A DNA stretch of 64,000 nucleotides from an uncultured Gemmatimonadota bacterium (lineage in GTDB: Bacteria; Gemmatimonadota; Gemmatimonadetes; Gemmatimonadales; Gemmatimonadaceae), in NCBI GenBank assembly GCA_903882745.1, contig CAIRYG010000005.1, positions 186,001 through 250,000 of the forward strand, given 5' to 3'. Position numbers and translations under genes: made by a program. The notes beneath the pieces were generated by a model, which had not been told where the DNA came from, searched no databases, and saw only the letters and a list, made by a program, of their open reading frames with translations. This document shows positions 1,365 through 11,038 of this stretch, one piece after another; position 1 is the first letter of the stretch, and each line of letters opens with the position of its first letter.

Positions 1365-3500
1365 CTACGGCACCACCTTCGCTCCGACCCACCGCGGAAT
1401 CCCCTGCTCCTCGTTCGACGGCAACGCTTTGGTCCGATTGTACTGGTTCCGCGCCTGACCGAGTTTGTCGAACCGCTGAATCCACAGCTGCGCCGCCAGG
1501 TCGTACCGATTGGTGACGTTCCCGAGCCAGTACGGTCGGTTCTCCTCGCGCCAGCTCCGCTCGTAGAGCTCCTTGGTGAGCACATAGCCGTCGCGCAGAT
1601 CCTGCATGCGTGAGTTGATAGTGCTCGCGATCTCCCCCAAGTCGTGCCCGGGATTGCCGCCGACTGCCACCGTGTCGAGCGCGTGCGTGTACAGCTTGGA
1701 AATCTCGTCCGAGAGCTGGAACTTCATGCCAATAAAGTCCATGCGTCGCGCGCCCATCTCCATCGCGTCAATCGCATCGGCGTTCCGAAGTCCGCCAGCA
1801 TCACGCGCCGCATCACGCGCCTGCGCGATCAAGACGAGCGCACTCTCCGCGGCGATACGCAACTGCCGGTTGTACGGGCGAAGCTTCTCCGCCTGCAACT
1901 GACCATCCACAGTGAACGGATCAAGCCAGAACAGATTGTCGCTCCCTTCACCAGCCTTCGCCGCACCAATCACCACGTGCGCCGCCGTGAGCTTGCGTTG
2001 TGCGTCGTTCAACTTCCCCGTGGCATCGCCGTGGAACTGCACACCAAAGCTCGCGCCAAATTCCGGAATCGACGCCTCCCCCTTCTGCCAGCTTGCCGCT
2101 GCGCCAAAGAGAATCCCGTACCACGTCTGATTGAAAATCGACTCGCCGTCGTCGTCCCACGTGGTGTTGAGCATCCCGGTCGCACCGAGCTGCTGCCCCT
2201 CACGCACAAAGCCCTGAATATTCCGCAGCGCAATGTCGTTGTTGGGATACACCCGGTTCCAGCTCGCCACGCCCGGCGCGACCCACACCTCCATACCGGC
2301 GTCGAGATATGGCTTCATTTTGCCCGTGAAGCCCTTGTACGTCCAATAGTCCCAGCCCACGGCAATCATCGAATGCGGGAGCGACTTCACGAGATCCGGA
2401 TGATTCCCAGCCACATCGCCCCAAAAGAGGAGCTGCTTCCCCGACGGCCGCAACGCCACTTCCACTTGCTTTAAGAAATCGAGATACACGGCGCCAATGC
2501 CCTGCGACTTCACGGCGTCCCGCGTGCGTCCCATGCCGAGCTCAAAAGTCTCGTCGGCGCCAATGTGCACGAACTTTGACGGGAAAATGCTGTTGATCTC
2601 CTCAAACCAGCTCTTGATCAGCGGCACCGACTGCGGATCGCCCGGCGCCAGCACATGCCCGTGATCATTTTCCGCAAGCGACGAATACAAATCGTACTTG
2701 AGCACGTGATGCAGGTGGCCAAAGGCTTCCTGCTCCGGGATCACATCAATGTGGTACTGCGCGGCGTACCCTACTAACTCCTTCACCTCAGCCTGCGACA
2801 TCGTGCCACCAGGCGGACCGATGAGCGGGCTGTTCTTGTACTCGAGCGTGTGCTCGTAGTACGGCGAGTACACGTTCATCTTGTACGCGGCAAAAATCCG
2901 AATCTGTTTCTTTTGGAAGTCAAGCGTCGGGACAGGACCGCGCGAGAGATCATCCTGAATGCCACGGTACTTCATCGCGGGCCAGTCGCGAATCACCGTC
3001 GCAAATACCGTGGGCGCTTTCGCCGTACCCTGCAACAGCTGCTTCACCGTCTGCACCCCGTAAAACACCCCGGCCGACGTCGCGCCGACAACATCGGCGC
3101 TCGTGGCCGAGGTCACCACGACATACCCCTCAGGGGACGATGCCTCACCCAGCGTCTGATTGTACTTGGCGAGCAGCGCCTTCCCACTCTCGCTCGAGGC
3201 GCGATGCAGGCGAATCGCAAATCCACCCTCAGCGGCCCCACTCACCTTCAGTCCGCGCTCGCGGAGTGATTCACCCAAGTCCTTCGCCGCGAACCGATCC
3301 TCGGCGTTCGCAGCCGTGGCGATCGCGATGCTCCCCGCGAGCGGCACGAACTTCCCCGCTGCCACTTCGCGAGGCTTGGGAATCAAATGCGGGTCGTCCG
3401 CCTGGGCCACCGCGCTACCAGCGATGGTGCTGGCAAGGAGCGCGAGCGCCGGTAGACGGGTCATCACGCGGGTGATCACGCGGGTCATCACACGGGTCAT
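1365..3500 (-). CDS. Secreted GH20 beta-N-acetylhexosaminidase-like enzyme
   Basis: The protein is about 711 residues. An N-terminal signal peptide ends near AGSAVAQA and is followed by a GH20b-type zincin-like lead domain beginning at LIPKPREV. The catalytic (beta/alpha)8 domain carries the family Asp-Glu pair in HIGADETFELG and an upstream DDLSRGPVPTLDF strand. GH20 enzymes release terminal GlcNAc/GalNAc by substrate-assisted catalysis, and this one is probably periplasmic or exported. The start is ambiguous because ATG codons at 3533, 3500, 3488 and 3464 are all in frame and three of them lie inside a 12-base tandem repeat. ATG 3464 alone would already give a textbook signal peptide. No Shine-Dalgarno decides between them. 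It lies between a TPR gene and the rhomboid gene in one direction. Confidence 0.85.
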   Translation of the reverse strand: MTRVMTRVITRVMTRLPALALLASTIAGSAVAQADDPHLIPKPREVAAGKFVPLAGSIAIATAANAEDRFAAKDLGESLRERGLKVSGAAEGGFAIRLHRASSESGKALLAKYNQTLGEASSPEGYVVVTSATSADVVGATSAGVFYGVQTVKQLLQGTAKAPTVFATVIRDWPAMKYRGIQDDLSRGPVPTLDFQKKQIRIFAAYKMNVYSPYYEHTLEYKNSPLIGPPGGTMSQAEVKELVGYAAQYHIDVIPEQEAFGHLHHVLKYDLYSSLAENDHGHVLAPGDPQSVPLIKSWFEEINSIFPSKFVHIGADETFELGMGRTRDAVKSQGIGAVYLDFLKQVEVALRPSGKQLLFWGDVAGNHPDLVKSLPHSMIAVGWDYWTYKGFTGKMKPYLDAGMEVWVAPGVASWNRVYPNNDIALRNIQGFVREGQQLGATGMLNTTWDDDGESIFNQTWYGILFGAAASWQKGEASIPEFGASFGVQFHGDATGKLNDAQRKLTAAHVVIGAAKAGEGSDNLFWLDPFTVDGQLQAEKLRPYNRQLRIAAESALVLIAQARDAARDAGGLRNADAIDAMEMGARRMDFIGMKFQLSDEISKLYTHALDTVAVGGNPGHDLGEIASTINSRMQDLRDGYVLTKELYERSWREENRPYWLGNVTNRYDLAAQLWIQRFDKLGQARNQYNRTKALPSNEEQGIPRWVGAKVVP
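3453..3500 (-). repeat. 12-base tandem repeat at the hexosaminidase start
   Basis: Four near-identical 12-base units (minus-strand reading close to ATGACCCGCGTG) lie end to end and encode repeated Met-Thr-Arg-Val. Three units begin with an in-frame ATG. Gain or loss of a unit would preserve the frame but change the number of start codons and the charge of the signal-peptide n-region. Confidence 0.85.
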
Positions 3501-3575
3501 CTCACGGGCGGCGAAAATGCGGCAGGTTGGCATCGACGGTGGGGTAAGCGGATACCGTCGAAGATGGCAGACGGG

Positions 3576-4208
3576 CTACCGCACGCCAAGCCCTGCCTTG
3601 GCGTTCCCATTGTCGGGCGACACCGCGAGCACGCCCTCAAAAATCGCCTTGGCCTCGGCGTTCTTCCCCAGCTTAAGCAGCGCCCACCCAAGTCCGGTGC
3701 GATAGTCCATTTCGGAGGGGTAATCCTCGACGAGGCGCCGATACGTGTTCTCGGAGCTCGCAAAATTGCCACCGCTGTACTGCGCGAGTCCAATCCGTGC
3801 GAGCGCGGTGGCATTGCGCGGGTCCACCGCGAGCACGGCGCCGCAGGCACGCTCGAGCTCCCGCCAGTTGCGTTGCGCAAGCAACGGCAGGGTGAGGCCA
3901 AGTTTGGCTTCAATCGACTTGGGCTCGGACGCAACGGCTTCGGAATAGCTCGCAATCGACCCCTTGAAGTCACCCTGCAGGTATTCAAGCCACCCAATGC
4001 GAATCGCGGAGAAATAGGCATTCCCCCCAGCAGCGCGCGCGTCGCGCGCCTTGGCGAGTGCGCCGGTGTAGTCACGCTTGGCCTCCAGAACGTACGAGTC
4101 TCGGTAGAGCCCCGCGGCGCGCGCGTCTTGCGCGCGGATCGTGCAGACCGGTGTCAGCACAGCGAGTGCGAGTAGCGTGCGCAGCGAGGCGCGAAGAGCG
4201 GATTGCAT
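3576..4208 (-). CDS. Secreted TPR-repeat protein
   Basis: This is a 210-residue protein with a signal peptide (MQSALRASLRTLLALAVL, then an Ala-rich region ending in IRAQ). Consecutive helical pairs of tetratricopeptide type fill the mature part, with recurring Gly/Ala-spaced patterns such as ALARIGLAQYSGGNFASSE and TGLGWALLKLGKNAEAKAI. TPR solenoids bind protein partners. Nothing suggests enzymatic activity. The start at ATG 4208 is chosen because the signal peptide begins there and the upstream extension is the end of the neighbouring frame. It lies 37 bases after the TPR/beta-barrel gene, with which it probably forms an envelope pair. Confidence 0.8.
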   Translation of the reverse strand: MQSALRASLRTLLALAVLTPVCTIRAQDARAAGLYRDSYVLEAKRDYTGALAKARDARAAGGNAYFSAIRIGWLEYLQGDFKGSIASYSEAVASEPKSIEAKLGLTLPLLAQRNWRELERACGAVLAVDPRNATALARIGLAQYSGGNFASSENTYRRLVEDYPSEMDYRTGLGWALLKLGKNAEAKAIFEGVLAVSPDNGNAKAGLGVR

Positions 4209-4245
4209 GAATTGTGACTCCGGAAAAATGAAATCGAGATACCAA

Positions 4246-5454
4246 TCAGTACGGCGCAATACGCACGCCAATGCCAATGCTCTGAAACGATCCGCTCGTT
4301 GCGGTCTGCTCGAGCTGGAGCTGTCCGAACGCAGCAACAGCACGTGTGGCCTGCCAGCTGACCGTCCCGGTGAATCCGCCGGTCGTTCGATCAAGGAACG
4401 ACAGAATACTCGGCCCTGCCGGAGAAAATGCCCACACTTCGTTGCCGAAGTGCGCGTCGAACTGTGCCGTGAGATGCTCGTTGCGAACGGTGAGTGAGGC
4501 CATGGGGCTCACCGCCGAGAACGCAGAGTCCGAGGTGATGCGAACACCGCCACTGACAGCGATGTTGGGTGAAAGCCACGCGAAGACCGAGGGCGCCACC
4601 TGCACATTATTCTTGCCCGTGCGCGCGATCATCGAAACAGTGGCTGCCACGCCGAATGTTCCGCCCACCCGAGTGTTCAATGCCACGCCGGAGTTTGAGC
4701 GTCCCGTACCAGCAAAGGCAAAACCAATCAGTTCGGTGGTCGAAATGCCAATATCGCGGGAAATGGCGCCGTAAAATTCAGTCTGCGCGTCGAACGCACC
4801 TTTCTTGCCGACGAACGTCGGCGACGTCACCGACCGAAAAGCGACGCGAACCGCCGATTCGTTGTCGAGACGAATGGGAAGTTGCGCGTAAAACACCTGT
4901 GCCTTTGACGAGGCGCTGGTGGCACTCACAAGCGCCGCCCACACTTCGGCGCTCACACCCGGCGGTCCACCGAGGAGCTCGATTCCCTTGTGGGCATCCT
5001 CATTCGACGCATCGAAGGTGAGCGCTTCGCTCCACGCGGTCCGCGCGTCGCCGAGTGCACCGCGGTCGAGGTTGTTGTAGCCAAGCGTGGTGAGCGCGAG
5101 GCCAAGCCCGGTTGTTGCCTCGGGAAGACTGCCCGGCATCGTGCGCGCGCGGCGGTAGAGTTGCACCGCATCAGCTCCTTTGCCCTGCCGCAGCGTAAGC
5201 CAGGCGAGCCGCACGGCCACGTCATAGGTGGCGGGCGCGTTGCCGAAGGCGTCAATCAGGAGCTGTTTTGCGGCAACGAAATCCCCACGCCCTTCAAGAG
5301 CGAGCGATTGCTCCCATGCGCCGGCGGTGGCCGCCTGCGGAAGGCGAACCGGCGGTCCGTCCTGCGCACGGAGCGGAGAAGCGGGACCCGCAAGCAAAAG
5401 GGTCAGTAGCGCACCACAAGGAAACAGTGCCTGGGGGCGAACGAAGCGCGGCAT
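4246..5454 (-). CDS. TPR domain plus predicted outer-membrane beta-barrel protein
   Basis: The 402-residue protein has a signal peptide (FPCGALLTLLLAGPASPLRAQ), about 130 residues of TPR-like helical repeats (for example ATYDVAVRLAWLTLRQGKGAD), and then about 230 residues rich in alternating hydrophobic residues ending in GIGVRIAPY. That C-terminal stretch with a terminal aromatic is typical of an outer-membrane barrel. YaiO-type proteins combine such parts, but the match is only architectural. The ATG at 5454 overlaps the preceding TGA by one base (TGATG), with GAGG seven bases upstream. An in-frame GTG at 5457 is an alternative. The overlap ties it to the urea-transporter/M23 gene. Confidence 0.75.
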   Translation of the reverse strand: MPRFVRPQALFPCGALLTLLLAGPASPLRAQDGPPVRLPQAATAGAWEQSLALEGRGDFVAAKQLLIDAFGNAPATYDVAVRLAWLTLRQGKGADAVQLYRRARTMPGSLPEATTGLGLALTTLGYNNLDRGALGDARTAWSEALTFDASNEDAHKGIELLGGPPGVSAEVWAALVSATSASSKAQVFYAQLPIRLDNESAVRVAFRSVTSPTFVGKKGAFDAQTEFYGAISRDIGISTTELIGFAFAGTGRSNSGVALNTRVGGTFGVAATVSMIARTGKNNVQVAPSVFAWLSPNIAVSGGVRITSDSAFSAVSPMASLTVRNEHLTAQFDAHFGNEVWAFSPAGPSILSFLDRTTGGFTGTVSWQATRAVAAFGQLQLEQTATSGSFQSIGIGVRIAPY

Positions 5455-7604
5455 CACGAGACCTCGGAGCGTTGGTCGTTGTCCTGCGGTGCAAGCATGA
5501 TCACGCGTTCCACCGAACCACGGGTGATACTCAAGCGGTGCGCATTTCCCGCGAGTGAAAGCTGGGCAGCGGTCCGGAACGAGTCGCTCCGCCCCTCAAT
5601 CGCGAGCGCCCCTTCGCTGCGCCGCGACGCGTAGTGGACCTCCCAGTCGTTGAAACCGGGAGCGACGACCGTCAGCAGATCCAGAAACGCCCACGGCCAA
5701 GCAAAGAGCAAGCGGCGCGGGACACGATCGGTCCATTGCATGGTCCCCTCTTGATCGAACGGAACGCGTGCCATGGCCAGTAGGACATAGCGCAGCAACG
5801 AGTCGTGCGCCCCGTCAAAGGCCACCACAACGAGCGCGTTCTCATACGACTCCAGATACAGCGCTCCACGCGCGGAACGCAGCGCGCGGCGGCCCCAGAG
5901 ATCCACCTCGACCCGCGCGACTTCCGTGGCGCTGCTCGCGGGATCCGTGAGCACCCACTGCGACCCTGGCGCGAAGGCGAGTGCTCCCGCTAACGCTTCA
6001 TCGCGCATGATCGGTCGCACACGGGCGCCTTCCGCGGGAATCACCCGATGCGAGATCGTCACCGTGCGATCTGCCCGGCTGACCACGTCACCGAAGTCGG
6101 CGGCCAGTGTCTCGCTCCCGAGCGACGGCCCACGCTGCACGTGAAAATGCAGATGCGGCACCAACGAGCGTCCGCTGTTTCCGCAACGCCCCAACTCAGC
6201 GCCGGCACGAATCGGATCGCCAGCCTTCACCGCAATGCTTCCCGGTTTCAGGTGCGAATAGACCGAGTACAAATCGGACCCGTGCGCGATCACCACAGTG
6301 TTGCCCCAGTTCTCGCGCGCATTCATGCCGCCAATCGCATTGTCGGGTACACCGTCACGGACCGACTCAACCGTTCCCGTGCCAGCAGCGAGCACCGGAA
6401 GATTGTAGCATCGGAAATCGCGCGGTTCGCGTCCTTCACCCTCCCAGGCGTTGCCGTCGGCGCCAAGAATCTCAAAATCAAACGCATGCCGCCACGGTCC
6501 CTTGTGCGTGTGTGCGCCATTGTGCCCCTGTGTCACCGTCCAGGTGCCGCGGAAGGGAAGTCGAAAGGGAAGCCACGCAAACTCACCAAAGCGCCGGACA
6601 CGCATCAGGTATCGCTCGAGCGCGTCCTCGGGGCTGGTGGCTGTGAGGAGTGCGGTGCTGGGATTCCGATCACGCTCGCGCATCCGCAGCGCCGTCATCA
6701 CCAGCAGCGCCGTCAACGCGAAGGGCAGCGACAATAACGGTAGCGAGAGTACGCCACTCAGAGGAAAAAGCGCATAGGTCACGACGCTCGCGAGTGCCCC
6801 GCTGACGAATGCCAACAACACCGAGGCGGGATGTGGAACAAAGAACACACCACCCAGTGCCATAGCCGTCAGCAACGCATTGAACGCCGCGGTCAGATCG
6901 GTAGGCCCAATGTCTACGCCACTGCGAAGCCCCGCATGCGCGAGCACGGTTCCCATCACACCGACTACCGCCAGCAGGAGAGCAATCCGACTGTGCCACG
7001 CAATCGCGGCGAGCACCAACAGGCCGGCAATCGTGCCATGCACATACAAAACCGCTGCCGGCACATCGAGCCAGCCCGTGCCGAACCATTCCACCGGAAT
7101 CACCGCGAGATGATCCATCGTCGCCCCGTCGGCATGCGGGGCCAGCCGGGCGGTGAGCTGCACCACCCACGCGGCTGCTACGAAAGGCAACGACAGCGCA
7201 GGAAGTGCATGCTTCGCGAGCAGGTGCGAAAACGCAGCGGCGAACAACACCGCCAGTGCCGCTCCCGCAATCACGAGTGCCCAAGAACTCCCGTCAGGCC
7301 CCGTGACAGCGGCAAGCGCGGTCAACACGGCCGCACTGGCATACACGCCATCGCGCGCGGCGTTGCGACCGAAGCCGAGCCCGAGCGTACATCCCTGTGC
7401 CACAGCGACAGCCACGAGCGCAGCACCCGCCGCGCGCGGAAAGGTGCACAACGCCGCGAGCACGAACCCGCCCGTCACGAGGTTCCGCGAGAGCACAATT
7501 TGCGAGAACGGCCGAAGCCCGCCCTCGAGGAGCGCCCGCACGGTAGGCCGAACGGTAGGCCCCACGTGCGCTCGCGTCTTCACCCGCGTCGAACTCAGCG
7601 CCAC
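5454..7604 (-). CDS. Urea-transporter-like membrane domain fused to an M23 metallopeptidase
   Basis: The protein is about 716 residues. Residues ~25-310 form a polytopic domain resembling urea transporters (UT/SLC14): FSQIVLSRNLVTGG near the start and DLTAAFNALLTAMALGGVFF near its end match the two pseudo-repeat signatures. Residues ~345-550 are a peptidase M23/LytM domain with the first metal ligands in HAFDFE (His373, Asp376) and the second in LVPHLHFHVQ (~484-488). Sequence such as NTVVIAHGSDLYSVYSHL is typical of active M23 enzymes. About 160 residues of unrecognised sequence follow. M23 enzymes cut peptidoglycan cross-links, so the domain presumably faces the periplasm. GTG 7604 is chosen because it follows the previous stop by seven bases, but downstream GTG codons are possible. 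Confidence 0.85.
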   Translation of the reverse strand: MALSSTRVKTRAHVGPTVRPTVRALLEGGLRPFSQIVLSRNLVTGGFVLAALCTFPRAAGAALVAVAVAQGCTLGLGFGRNAARDGVYASAAVLTALAAVTGPDGSSWALVIAGAALAVLFAAAFSHLLAKHALPALSLPFVAAAWVVQLTARLAPHADGATMDHLAVIPVEWFGTGWLDVPAAVLYVHGTIAGLLVLAAIAWHSRIALLLAVVGVMGTVLAHAGLRSGVDIGPTDLTAAFNALLTAMALGGVFFVPHPASVLLAFVSGALASVVTYALFPLSGVLSLPLLSLPFALTALLVMTALRMRERDRNPSTALLTATSPEDALERYLMRVRRFGEFAWLPFRLPFRGTWTVTQGHNGAHTHKGPWRHAFDFEILGADGNAWEGEGREPRDFRCYNLPVLAAGTGTVESVRDGVPDNAIGGMNARENWGNTVVIAHGSDLYSVYSHLKPGSIAVKAGDPIRAGAELGRCGNSGRSLVPHLHFHVQRGPSLGSETLAADFGDVVSRADRTVTISHRVIPAEGARVRPIMRDEALAGALAFAPGSQWVLTDPASSATEVARVEVDLWGRRALRSARGALYLESYENALVVVAFDGAHDSLLRYVLLAMARVPFDQEGTMQWTDRVPRRLLFAWPWAFLDLLTVVAPGFNDWEVHYASRRSEGALAIEGRSDSFRTAAQLSLAGNAHRLSITRGSVERVIMLAPQDNDQRSEVS

Positions 7605-7611
7605 ACCGCCC

Positions 7612-8949
7612 TTACAGCCACGCCGGCATCTCCTCTTGCTGCACGAGCGTTTCCACGGTCTCGGCGCGACGAATAATCGCGTGATTGCCGTCAAGTCCGA
7701 CCATCACCACATTCGGGCGCGCGGTGATGAACTGCATCCACTGCGTCACGTTATACGCCCCGATCCGCCCCACGACCACACGATCCCCAGCCTTCAACGC
7801 GGGAAAGAGAATGCGGTCGCGTACCACGTCGATGTTCATGCAGAGCGGGCCAACAAACACGGTCGGCTCCGCCGTGCCGTGCACATCCTGCGCCGGAAAC
7901 ACATCGTGGCGATACCACCACGCGGTCGGCAGCAAGTTCACCCCCGCGTCAATAATCACCGCACGACGACCATCCGTGAGGCGCTTATTCCCCACGACAC
8001 TCGCCACCAAGATCCCGGAATCGTCCACAATCGCACGGCCCGTTTCGAGCACAATCCGCGGCCACTCAGCGCCGCCATACGCTTCGTCCAGCCCAGCCGC
8101 GATCTTCTCCACGTACTGCGAGAAACTCGGCGTCGCTTGCTCGCCCGGCAGATACTGCGACTGCAAGGTGTTGCGCGACGCAAAGCCACCGCCCATGTCA
8201 ATCGTATCGATCGACACGTTGGATTCATCACGCAACTGCTTGGCGAGATTCGCAATTCCCTTGGCGGCCAGTCGGTACGCGTCGGCATCCTGCACAAAGG
8301 TGCCCACGTGAATGTGCAGCGTGTCGATCTCCAGCACACCACGTCGCACAATCCGACGCGCCGCCTCAAGCGCGGAGCCATTTTCGAGGTTGAAACCAAA
8401 ACGATCCCACGACTGCGTGGGGAGCTCCGTCATGTTCACCCGGATCCCGACCTTCGGACGGATGCCCATGCGCTCGGCGACCTTCTCGACAAGTGCGACC
8501 TCATCCATATGGTCCATCTGCACATGGGCGCCCTTCGTGAACGCCATCTCCAGCTCGGCGTCCGTCTTGGCCGGGCCATTGAAGAGGATCTGGTGGCCTG
8601 GCATGCCGAGGCGGAGCGCCATCTGCATTTCCAGCCCGCTCACGACTTCCGCCCACGCCCCCTCTTGGTGGAGCACGCGACAGACGGCACCGAGATAGTT
8701 GGTCTTGTAGCTCCACCCGATCGTGAAGCGCGGGATGCGCGTCGCCATCTGGTCGCGGAGTTCGCGCATCCGCTCACGGAGCAGCCGCTCCGAGAACAAA
8801 ATCAGCGGCGAGCCGTACGCGGACACGAGATCCGCAATCGGCACCCCTTCGAACTTGTCGTACACGCGGATCGAGGGGCGTGAGCCGAACTTGCTGATGC
8901 TCCCCACCTGATGGCGAACAATGACGGGACGTTCGTAACGCGGCTTCAT
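7612..8949 (-). CDS. PLP-dependent fold-type III decarboxylase, LysA/ornithine-decarboxylase-like
   Basis: This is a 445-residue alanine-racemase-fold decarboxylase. The PLP Schiff-base lysine lies in GWSYKTNYL (Lys82). The barrel carries LHIHVGTFV, DMGGGFA (phosphate-binding glycines) and ETGRAIVDDSG. The C-terminal beta domain has GPLCMNIDVV, where the Cys of meso-diaminopimelate/ornithine decarboxylases acts on substrate. The substrate cannot be read from sequence. A role in lysine synthesis is not favoured because the gene is locked by an ATGA overlap to an ATP-grasp ligase and a PqqD-like gene, not to other lysine genes. The start at ATG 8949 is fixed by that overlap. Confidence 0.85.
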   Translation of the reverse strand: MKPRYERPVIVRHQVGSISKFGSRPSIRVYDKFEGVPIADLVSAYGSPLILFSERLLRERMRELRDQMATRIPRFTIGWSYKTNYLGAVCRVLHQEGAWAEVVSGLEMQMALRLGMPGHQILFNGPAKTDAELEMAFTKGAHVQMDHMDEVALVEKVAERMGIRPKVGIRVNMTELPTQSWDRFGFNLENGSALEAARRIVRRGVLEIDTLHIHVGTFVQDADAYRLAAKGIANLAKQLRDESNVSIDTIDMGGGFASRNTLQSQYLPGEQATPSFSQYVEKIAAGLDEAYGGAEWPRIVLETGRAIVDDSGILVASVVGNKRLTDGRRAVIIDAGVNLLPTAWWYRHDVFPAQDVHGTAEPTVFVGPLCMNIDVVRDRILFPALKAGDRVVVGRIGAYNVTQWMQFITARPNVVMVGLDGNHAIIRRAETVETLVQQEEMPAWL

Positions 8950-10031
8950 GCGGAGGGCGTGGCGAAAGGAAGAATGCCGAGGGCAGAGAGCTGACCAAAG
9001 GTCGACATATCCGCGACCTGATCAAGCGAGATCCGGACAAACATCTGTCCGGTCTTGTAGGCAGGGAGCGGCGTGGCAATGCGCTCGCCAAGCGCGAGGC
9101 GCGCGCACGCCGAGGGCAGGTTCTGACCGGCGGCTGCGGTGAGATAGCACCAGGCGGGGAAGCGTGGATTAATCTCGATCACATGCAGTGAATCGGCCGT
9201 CATCTCGCCTTTCGCAGCCATAATCTCAACTTCAAGTGGGCCGCGCCACTTGAGGGCGCGAATGACCGCCGCCGCGAGTTCGAGGAGCGCGGGACTGCTG
9301 ACGGTCACACCAGACCAGCCTTTGCCCTTATCGGTGAGCGCGAGTTTGCGCATCGCGACCGCGCCAACCGTGGCGCCGGTGCCGTCGCCGAGTGCACAGA
9401 CGTTGTATTCGTCGCCGTCGAGGTGTCGCTGGACGATGACCGGAAGTCCCCACGTCGCTTCGTAGTAGCGAAAGGAGGCGAGGGCATCCGCTTCCGTGTA
9501 GCAGACGTACGCCCCGTAGTAGACCCCTTTGACCACAACAGGGAGCTCGAACTTCTTGATGAGTTTCCCGAGCCCGTCGGCGCTCATCAGCGGCTCCGAT
9601 TCGGGGACATTCACCCCCGGCTCGGCGCCAAGCTTGGGGAGTTGGGGTTTGGAGCTTCGATCGATCGCGTCGACGGTCGGCACAAAGGTGTGCACCCCAA
9701 GCGCGAGCAGTTCGTCGCGCAGCGACGCCACGGCGCGAATCTCGGAGTCTAGGGTCGGGATAAACACCGTGATGCCGAACTGCGCGACGAGTTCACGCAT
9801 GCGATGGAGCAGCGCCTCGCGTCCGGCGGAGGGGAGCGGAAGAATCGCGCCCCCGTCGAGCAGGCCGGTGGCGTAGAACCCCGGGTCGAGCGGGTCGTAA
9901 CCAAGGCCGATGATGCGGCCCTGGAAGCTCGGATCGAGTCGGAGCGCGCGCGCAACCGGAACCCCAGGGGCGGGGTTGTCGGTGGCATTCATTCCCGTGA
10001 CCGCGATGGTCGCGGTGAGCGGCGAGTTCAC
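8946..10031 (-). CDS. ATP-grasp carboxylate-amine ligase-like protein
   Basis: The 361-residue protein has a Rossmann-like pre-ATP-grasp lobe (begins ATIAVTGMNATDNPAPG; GRIIGLGYDPLDPGFY) and an ATP-grasp domain. The latter shows LPVVVKGVYYGAYVC (ATP-binding Lys), QRHLDGDEYNV and the metal-ligand strand VIEINPRFPAWC. It resembles the carbamoyl-phosphate-synthase/PylC branch. ATP-grasp enzymes activate a carboxylate as acyl phosphate and couple it to an amine or thiol. The product is unknown. A GTGA overlap joins it to the upstream pqqD-like gene and an ATGA overlap to the decarboxylase, so the three proteins are almost certainly made together. Confidence 0.85.
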   Translation of the reverse strand: MNSPLTATIAVTGMNATDNPAPGVPVARALRLDPSFQGRIIGLGYDPLDPGFYATGLLDGGAILPLPSAGREALLHRMRELVAQFGITVFIPTLDSEIRAVASLRDELLALGVHTFVPTVDAIDRSSKPQLPKLGAEPGVNVPESEPLMSADGLGKLIKKFELPVVVKGVYYGAYVCYTEADALASFRYYEATWGLPVIVQRHLDGDEYNVCALGDGTGATVGAVAMRKLALTDKGKGWSGVTVSSPALLELAAAVIRALKWRGPLEVEIMAAKGEMTADSLHVIEINPRFPAWCYLTAAAGQNLPSACARLALGERIATPLPAYKTGQMFVRISLDQVADMSTFGQLSALGILPFATPSA

Positions 10032-10279
10032 TTCACCAGCCCATGTTCGCGGAGCCGCCCGACGAGTTCGTAGACATCGCGGGCGATGTCGTCCTCAGGT
10101 TCGGTCTCAAACTGCTCGTGGAGAGCCGCGATCACCGCTTCGGGGGTCGCGCCCTCCTTGAGAGAACGCAGCACCGCGAGCGCGGTGCCATTCACGTTGT
10201 ACGTGTGGCCCGTCAGCGGGTCGAACACGAAGCCTGCGTCGGAAATGGCCAACTCGCGGAGACGTTCGGTATTCGACAT
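10028..10279 (-). CDS. PqqD-like small protein (RiPP recognition element fold)
   Basis: The 83-residue protein begins MSNTERLRELAISDAGFVFD and continues with GHTYNVNGTALAVLRSLKEG and a C-terminal helical VYELVGRLREHGLVK. This order, a beta hairpin with the phrase fD.ltg..y.vN.tg and then three helices, matches PqqD family peptide-binding modules. PqqD proteins recognise a precursor peptide and hand it to a modifying enzyme. No radical SAM gene is adjacent; the partner here is an ATP-grasp protein joined by a GTGA overlap. The ATG at 10279 has no clear Shine-Dalgarno, and in-frame starts at 10318 and 10354 are alternatives. Confidence 0.75.
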   Translation of the reverse strand: MSNTERLRELAISDAGFVFDPLTGHTYNVNGTALAVLRSLKEGATPEAVIAALHEQFETEPEDDIARDVYELVGRLREHGLVK

Positions 10280-10405
10280 GCGGATGCTCGGGAAGGTGGA
10301 GTGCGGCGTATGCCTCATGCCGCATTGTTCCGACAATCTAGCCAACCCATTCATTCCAACGGTGGGAACTGGAACCGTGGAGCCGAGTGGCCACGGACGC
10401 TCGCG

Positions 10406-11038
10406 CTACGTGCGGGACGGTATCAGGCGTCGGTCGACGGCAATCAAGATGGCGCTCATCACGGCGAGCGCGGCGGTAATCATACCCGAAACTTGGGCGA
10501 CCACGGGGTAGCCGAGCTTGGTGACATCAAGGAAGAAGTACGGATACCAGCCTTCAGCCGCCCCGCGCCCGAGCGAGTACACAAGATAGAGCGCGGGGTA
10601 GCCGAGCCAGGTCACTAACTGCGGAAAGGCGAGCGTTCCTTTTGGGACGAACCGCCACCAGAAGAGCAGCACGAGGAGTGGGACCACGTCGTGCACGAGT
10701 TCGTCGGCAACGATGCTGAGTCCCTTCGGGTGATAGGTGCTGCGCAGGAGCACGGAGTAGGCGACACCAACGAACAGAATGTGGATCGTGGTCGCCGAAA
10801 GCACGCCCGGGCGATTCGCCCATTCTGTCCAGCGCCCCGGTCGGGACCGTGCGACAATCGTGAACAGCACGGCCACAATCACGTTCGTGGTGATCGTGAA
10901 GTACCCGACCAAGAGCCAGAAGCCGTGCAGCACCGACGTGCCGGCGATCTGGGATCGGAGGACGCTGGTCACAGCCTGCAGGGCGAGCCCTGTCCAGCAG
11001 GTGACGGCGACAACGGTGGCGGCGGATCGACGGGTCAT
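10406..11038 (-). CDS. Pr6Pr-like integral membrane protein
   Basis: This is a 210-residue protein with about six hydrophobic segments. YFTITTNVIVAVLFTIVA, the HDVVPLLVLLFWW segment and the late GWYPYFFLDVTKLGY resemble the Pr6Pr/FAR-17a-like family of six-helix bacterial membrane proteins, whose activity is not established. ATG 11038 is chosen because hydrophobic coding sequence begins there; the frame extends upstream through the efflux promoter and is unlikely to be used. It is divergent from the efflux operon and separated from the downstream pqqD gene by 126 bases. Confidence 0.7.
   Translation of the reverse strand: MTRRSAATVVAVTCWTGLALQAVTSVLRSQIAGTSVLHGFWLLVGYFTITTNVIVAVLFTIVARSRPGRWTEWANRPGVLSATTIHILFVGVAYSVLLRSTYHPKGLSIVADELVHDVVPLLVLLFWWRFVPKGTLAFPQLVTWLGYPALYLVYSLGRGAAEGWYPYFFLDVTKLGYPVVAQVSGMITAALAVMSAILIAVDRRLIPSRT

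Follow-up and report, generated by a model that had tools for sequence, protein, structure and literature searches.

A conserved bacterial gene cassette with a PqqD-like protein predicted to dock a leader-like tail of its decarboxylase

Introduction

RiPP recognition elements (RREs) are known as readers of the short precursor peptides of ribosomally synthesized and post-translationally modified peptides (RiPPs). TfuB1 and TbiB1, the B1 recognition proteins of lasso peptide systems, are discrete RREs. The butirosin enzymes BtrJ and BtrK are an ATP-grasp ligase and a decarboxylase that act on a carrier. For RREs, one report describes YxxP as an established leader motif (PMC12710340), a second names the leader residues Tyr-17, Pro-14, and Leu-12 (PMC10368454), and a third gives a leader of the form YxxPxVLxHQx... 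(PMC13381572). In this study, we analyzed a 64,000-nucleotide stretch of an uncultured Gemmatimonadota bacterium (hereafter the window; GenBank assembly GCA_903882745.1, contig CAIRYG010000005.1, positions 186,001 to 250,000), which carries a six-gene locus on its minus strand at 3576-10279. The locus encodes a PqqD-like RRE, an ATP-grasp ligase, a pyridoxal-phosphate (PLP) fold-III decarboxylase (DEC), a urea-transporter-fold channel fused to an M23 peptidase domain (UT/M23), and two proteins with tetratricopeptide repeats (TPRs). All six open reading frames (ORFs) are present with the overlaps and gaps given in a preliminary description of this DNA.

Results

The first gene of the cassette (10028-10279, minus strand) encodes an 83-amino-acid peptide-recognition protein with a Pfam PqqD score of 48.7 bits. 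A profile of 23 cassette PqqDs was compared with the Protein Data Bank (PDB), and the nearest chains were TfuB1 (6jx3, 6e-11) and TbiB1 (5v1u, 2e-10). The 9x90 chaperone came next and 9x8z was weaker; their source identifies them as PbaB1 and LppB, respectively, and lists N33, D70, F74, M78, and L83 as leader-binding groove residues of LppB (PMC13381572). By spacing, these residues map onto N30, D68, F72, L76, and L81 of the cassette PqqD. In an alignment of 74 PqqDs (this and the 78-, 79-, and 83-row alignments below omit fragments of under 70-80% of query length), N30 is kept in 73, D68 in 66, L76 in 70, and L81 in 56 (with 18 gaps), and position 72 is Phe in 65, Tyr in 6, and Leu in 3. The cassette PqqD carries the RRE domain by which lasso and other RRE-guided RiPP clusters are recognized. 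The model for PqqD of PQQ biosynthesis (TIGR03859) was not reached (21.2 vs. a cut-off of 46), and the HPr-rel-A PqqD model (TIGR04353) was passed (45 vs. 35). The partner kinase HprK_rel_A (TIGR04352) scored above its cut-off in one of 20 cassette genomes and was absent from the window's genome; membership in the HPr-rel-A system was rejected because this partner is missing. A role of PqqD as a LysW-like carrier was also rejected: the protein has no conserved nucleophile, and its C-terminal tail differs between members in both length and sequence.

DEC (7612-8949, minus strand; 445 amino acids) begins with a leader-like N-terminal tail, encoded at 8872-8949 on the same strand, that reads Y5-xx-P8-x-I10, followed by G16 and K20. 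The motif [YWF]xxPx[ILVM] occurs in the tails of all 83 aligned DECs, compared with a mean of 2.7 and a maximum of 10 in shuffled tails, and the strict form YxxPx[IL] is found in 73. Pro8 is invariant, and positions 9, 11, 14, and 15 vary freely. The consensus YERPxIxRHQxG (H in 49/83, Q in 29/83) has its H and Q at the same offsets as the leader YxxPxVLxHQx... of PMC13381572. Residues 1-26 match nothing in the aligned portions of LysA and FslC (7kh2). When a tail profile was run against the 20 cassette genomes, each yielded one strong match, the DEC itself (E 2.6e-7 or better), and the next best match anywhere had an E value of 0.196. The RRE is closest to lasso-type proteins, all 83 tails carry the motif, and the 20 genomes hold no second copy of the tail; DEC is therefore the likely ligand. 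We consider it fairly probable that the cassette PqqD is a lasso-B1-type RRE with an intact YxxP groove and binds the DEC tail. The preliminary description pointed out that PqqD modules bind peptides; here the likeliest such peptide is DEC's own N-terminal tail.

Several observations speak against this docking. G16 (77/83) and K20 (82/83) are conserved beyond the motif, and the tail could be conserved for the fold or oligomer of DEC itself. Ten tails gave no match in NCBIfam and only chance-level matches in Pfam. The tail profile had no match in the PDB either, a search that has little power with 26 residues. DEC residue 5 and PqqD residue 68 were seen to co-vary only in two close relatives. 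The PqqD of the window keeps N30, D68, L76, and L81, and its position 72 is Leu.

Conservation of the genes as a unit was evaluated in two phyla. Among 249 Gemmatimonadota genomes, drawn evenly from the window's phylum, ATP-grasp (E < 1e-70), DEC (E up to 1e-60), and full-length UT/M23 occurred in the same three genomes (G000, G144, and G187). Seven further genomes had only weaker ATP-grasp matches (1e-10 to 1e-12), and the remaining UT/M23 matches listed covered one domain only. The cassette was absent from seven sampled congeners of the window's genome. Among 188 genomes of Myxococcota, the phylum of Minicystis rosea, ATP-grasp and DEC were found in the same 16, and UT/M23 in 14 of these; the contigs of the other two stop 940 and 461 bases past DEC. 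The cassette is present in a named organism, Minicystis rosea DSM 24000.

The cassette is widespread. When a profile built from three DECs was run against one genome per species, 248 DEC-like stretches were confirmed, and the analysis covered the 80 best of them. These 80 loci were picked by DEC similarity, so DEC is present in them by construction, and each gene was counted only where the contig reaches far enough. Upstream of DEC, ATP-grasp was present in 79/79 and PqqD in 72/72 assessable loci; downstream, UT/M23 was present in 79/80 and the TPR protein in 68/72. The cassette was complete in 60 of the 80 loci. Homologues of the barrel gene occur in most loci, after UT/M23 in some and before pqqD in others. 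The preliminary description had claimed one six-gene unit, and here the spacing was confirmed and the gene order recurs across phyla far beyond chance. Scattered genes in relatives would have spoken against such a unit; instead, ATP-grasp, DEC, and UT/M23 co-occur in 3/249 Gemmatimonadota genomes and ATP-grasp and DEC in 16/188 Myxococcota genomes, with the order kept across the 80 loci. As judged from these comparisons, the six genes are shown to be inherited together in a fixed order.

Across 69 members, the four core proteins have pairwise identities that correlate with one another at 0.70-0.94, as expected for genes moving together, although shared ancestry of the hosts contributes. In the DEC tree (83 rows from 11 named phyla, including 15 rows without a group), the window's sequence adjoins an Acidobacteriota sequence (99) within a Myxococcota-rich clade (100), and the two other Gemmatimonadota genomes are placed elsewhere, near Aquificota and Thermotogota. 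Since the tree splits the Gemmatimonadota copies, the cassette was probably acquired at least twice by this phylum, with the window's copy arriving by transfer. No relative of the ATP-grasp protein was found in viral contigs, and no DEC relative at E 1e-60 was found in plasmids. These data are best explained by a self-contained cassette that moves horizontally among diderm bacteria. Around the cassette, no further gene family is conserved across clades; clade-specific families were seen, and their names were partly looked up. The earlier statement that the locus has no radical SAM gene agrees with the absence of one among the conserved neighbours. Promoter scans, terminator scans, and base composition gave nothing informative. 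In G144 (L015, 12807-19000), the cassette adjoins genes for an acyl-CoA ligase, an acyl-CoA dehydrogenase, a short-chain dehydrogenase, and an FMN oxidoreductase.

UT/M23 (5454-7604, minus strand) has a GTG start and lies 7 bases after DEC. It combines a urea-transporter (UT) fold (Pfam UT, PF03253, 128.9 bits vs. a cut-off of 25), an M23 domain (Peptidase_M23, 57.8 bits), and a C-terminal beta-rich region. The urea-transport equivalog TIGR03441 was not reached (87.5 vs. 274.6). In the predicted model (pLDDT 84), the UT part matches dvUT 3me1 (TM 0.82), and the M23 part matches LytM-type folds. The Zn-binding and catalytic His/Asp set of M23 is complete, as H397, D406, H481, H514, and H516 are invariant in 78/78 members; the H-D spacing is 9, longer than that of LytM. 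Among the slot residues, the second-repeat Asn is present in 78/78, the T294 position varies (A, I, S, V, or F), and E187 is Ala or Ser in 70/78. Because E187 is replaced in most members, the cargo of this channel-like protein may not be urea.

In the UT fold, both termini lie on the same side, which is cytoplasmic in UT-B. With loop boundaries set by hand from the predicted helices, K/R residues are richer on the N/C-terminal side in 78/78 members, and in 76/78 (with 2 ties) when only short loops are counted. From the fold and the loop charges, the M23 domain is therefore predicted, with good probability, to be cytoplasmic. An alternative is envelope remodelling, in which a periplasmic M23 domain would cut peptidoglycan peptides and the UT part would serve only as an anchor or sensor. 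Nearly all known M23 enzymes hydrolyse the cell wall, and the catalytic residues of this one are intact; the TPR and barrel neighbours also resemble envelope proteins. Against this stand the same-side termini and the charges that place them in the cytoplasm, and envelope remodelling leaves PqqD, ATP-grasp, and DEC unexplained. Disulfides were considered as a sign of a periplasmic M23 domain and rejected, since the cysteine pairs do not co-vary as disulfides. We regard envelope remodelling as unlikely, and the wall-cutting activity mentioned in the preliminary description is not supported, since the fold and charges put M23 on the cytoplasmic side.

The last two genes encode predicted envelope proteins. 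The TPR-barrel protein (4246-5457 or 5454, minus strand; overlapping UT/M23 by 4 or 1 bases) contains TPRs below the Pfam cut-offs, and its apparent signal peptide and putative outer-membrane beta-barrel were judged by inspection. After a 37-base gap follows a predicted periplasmic TPR protein (3576-4208, minus strand) with an apparent signal peptide and TPRs found by Pfam. A GH20 beta-N-acetylhexosaminidase-like gene (1365-3533, minus strand) begins 42 bases past this last cassette gene and is not a conserved neighbour elsewhere.

No obvious precursor peptide had been noticed in the locus, and a conserved short ORF upstream of pqqD had been suggested as something to look for. In a search confined to the 1.5 kb before pqqD, 560 short ORFs gave matches only among close relatives; no conserved precursor was found there, and the DEC tail is single-copy in the 20 genomes. 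In a conventional RiPP pathway whose precursor is unlinked, PqqD would read a peptide from another locus, and this peptide would be modified and cut by ATP-grasp, DEC, and M23. The lasso-type RRE suits such a pathway, RiPP clusters commonly include ATP-grasp enzymes and peptidases, and some RiPP precursors are unlinked. However, the upstream search gave no conserved short ORF and the 20 cassette genomes no second ORF with a DEC-like tail, although a differently led precursor lies outside the latter search; we consider this pathway improbable. That the RRE docks DEC itself would explain the missing precursor.

A precursor might also be embedded in DEC. The tail would then be a substrate, presented by PqqD, modified by ATP-grasp (for example at Lys20), and cleaved by M23 close to Gly16 or Gly22. 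Conservation of K20 and G16, the failure to find a separate precursor, and the predicted location of M23 on the same side as the tail agree with this arrangement, and precursor-enzyme fusions exist in borosins. On the other hand, G16-K20-F21-G22 may be structural and the modification is purely hypothetical, which makes an embedded precursor rather doubtful. A related version, to which we give similarly little credence, has DEC as its own leader-tagged, RiPP-style substrate: the RRE would present the YxxPxI...NKFG tail, ATP-grasp would build or anchor an amino-acid derivative there, DEC would act on it in cis, the cytoplasmic M23 domain would cut it free, and the product would exit via the channel. 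If true, this would be a carrier-on-enzyme assembly line unlike known RiPP, nonribosomal peptide synthetase (NRPS), and amino-carrier pathways.

For DEC as an enzyme, the gene overlaps that of ATP-grasp by 4 bases and the protein matches Orn_Arg_deC_N (120) and Orn_DAP_Arg_deC (45) in Pfam. Catalytic K82, C370, and D374 are intact in 83/83 members. The nearest solved relative is N-citrylornithine decarboxylase (7kh2, E 1.2e-78), and the LysA (TIGR01048, 207.5 vs. 297.9 bits) and FslC (NF041039, 222 vs. 500) models were not reached. Compared with the LysA of the same genome, which has no DEC-like tail, the CES-D motif is changed to CMNID and the Arg of LLRP to Thr342; M371 occurs in 83/83 and T342 in 82/83 DECs, and both replacements are also present in the 7kh2 alignment. 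The replaced Glu and Arg are the substrate-binding and distal-carboxylate residues of LysA. DEC thus lacks the diaminopimelate-binding residues, and its pocket resembles that of N-citrylornithine decarboxylase. Because that enzyme acts on conjugated ornithine, we infer by analogy that DEC may act on a conjugated amino acid. The preliminary description would have been undermined by DEC being the only LysA; the window's genome encodes a true LysA at C10:108790 (437.9 vs. 297.9 bits), LysA exceeds its curated cut-off in 16 of the 20 cassette genomes, and no cassette DEC passes it. A variant lysine or polyamine metabolism, with DEC as a plain diaminopimelate or basic-amino-acid decarboxylase and the rest incidental, has the intact fold-III catalytic residues and the FslC and LysA matches (222 and 208 bits, both under cut-offs) on its side, but is very unlikely given the separate LysA, the replaced diaminopimelate-binding positions, and the strict linkage of DEC to five unrelated genes. 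Elsewhere in the window's genome (L003, 1459-4052), an ornithine-type decarboxylase gene stands beside a homospermidine-synthase-like gene (both named by reading).

The ATP-grasp gene (8946-10031, minus strand; 361 amino acids) overlaps pqqD by 4 bases, and the family alignment favours its longer GTG-started form over an ATG at 9992. The protein scores 37.7 bits with ATPgrasp_Ter and 27.1 with ATP-grasp_3. Its model (pLDDT 92) is best matched by 2pn1 (Z 28.6, root-mean-square deviation 2.3, 293 aligned), an uncharacterised carbamoyl-phosphate-synthase-like protein, followed by biotin carboxylases, GAR synthetase, L-amino-acid ligases, and PylC. BtrJ is not among the 50 fold matches listed, which carries no weight either way. 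K155, E254, E256, E273, N275, and R277 are conserved in 79/79 ATP-grasp proteins; as modelled, the fold leaves the substrate unspecified. In Desulfurobacteriaceae, the cassette is followed by a second, divergent ATP-grasp gene (E about 1e-27) in the opposite orientation (L073, L077, and L091 at about 11-16 kb; L086 at 9667-10959). L086 also has a second PqqD and a partial ATP-grasp gene just upstream of the full cassette (167-917), perhaps a partial duplication.

Discussion

We tentatively propose the following chain of events, with the likelier steps first. The RRE groove of PqqD would bind the N-terminal YxxPx[IL] tail of DEC and so keep DEC, probably along with the ATP-grasp ligase, in a single cytoplasmic complex. 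ATP-grasp would form an amide on an amino acid, and DEC would then decarboxylate the conjugate. The small amide product, a presumed peptide or amino-acid derivative, would pass through the urea-channel-like membrane protein, at whose cytoplasmic mouth the fused M23 domain would trim or release the product or its carrier. In the periplasm and outer membrane, the product would be handled by the TPR and barrel proteins. Docking is the best-supported step; the chemistry and the direction of transport we infer. Some findings count against the complete chain: E187 is lost from most channels, the window's own UT copy has also lost its first-repeat motif (F80/N81 to S/A), and a Bacteroidales bin (L068, 8995-13652) carries PqqD, ATP-grasp, and DEC but shows no UT/M23. 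In that bin, a histidine-kinase-like gene and then a thioredoxin-reductase-like gene follow DEC (named by reading).

If the docking is true, a family whose only leader sits on an enzyme would widen the role of RREs, and many orphan PqqD-like genes would then work without any precursor. A urea-channel fold with an M23 peptidase on its cytoplasmic face would be unusual as well. In the open-access literature, neither the cassette nor a UT-M23 fusion was found described; subscription papers and preprints were largely outside this search.

Among described systems, the lasso B1 and discrete RREs (TfuB1, TbiB1, and LppB) share with the cassette the domain, the groove residues, and a YxxPx[IL] motif in the same operon. 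They differ in that the cassette motif sits on a 445-amino-acid enzyme rather than on a short precursor, and no lasso cyclase or transglutaminase-type B2 peptidase is among the conserved neighbours of the cassette, where clade-specific families are partly named. FslC (7kh2) shares the aligned CM-x-x-D and T..xYRH signature with DEC; in contrast, the conserved neighbours of the cassette include no siderophore synthetase, and the 26-residue DEC tail lies outside the alignment. The butirosin pathway also pairs an ATP-grasp enzyme, BtrJ, with a fold-III decarboxylase, BtrK, and the two act one after the other on a tethered amino acid; BtrK (2j66) and 7ru7 are among the solved relatives of DEC in the PDB comparison. 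Unlike butirosin synthesis, the cassette has no acyl carrier protein, and its PqqD has a variable C-terminus and no conserved attachment residue. Finally, dvUT (3k3f, 3me1) has the UT fold and the second-repeat slot Asn in common with UT/M23, whereas the cassette UT has E187 and T294 replaced and carries a fused M23 domain.

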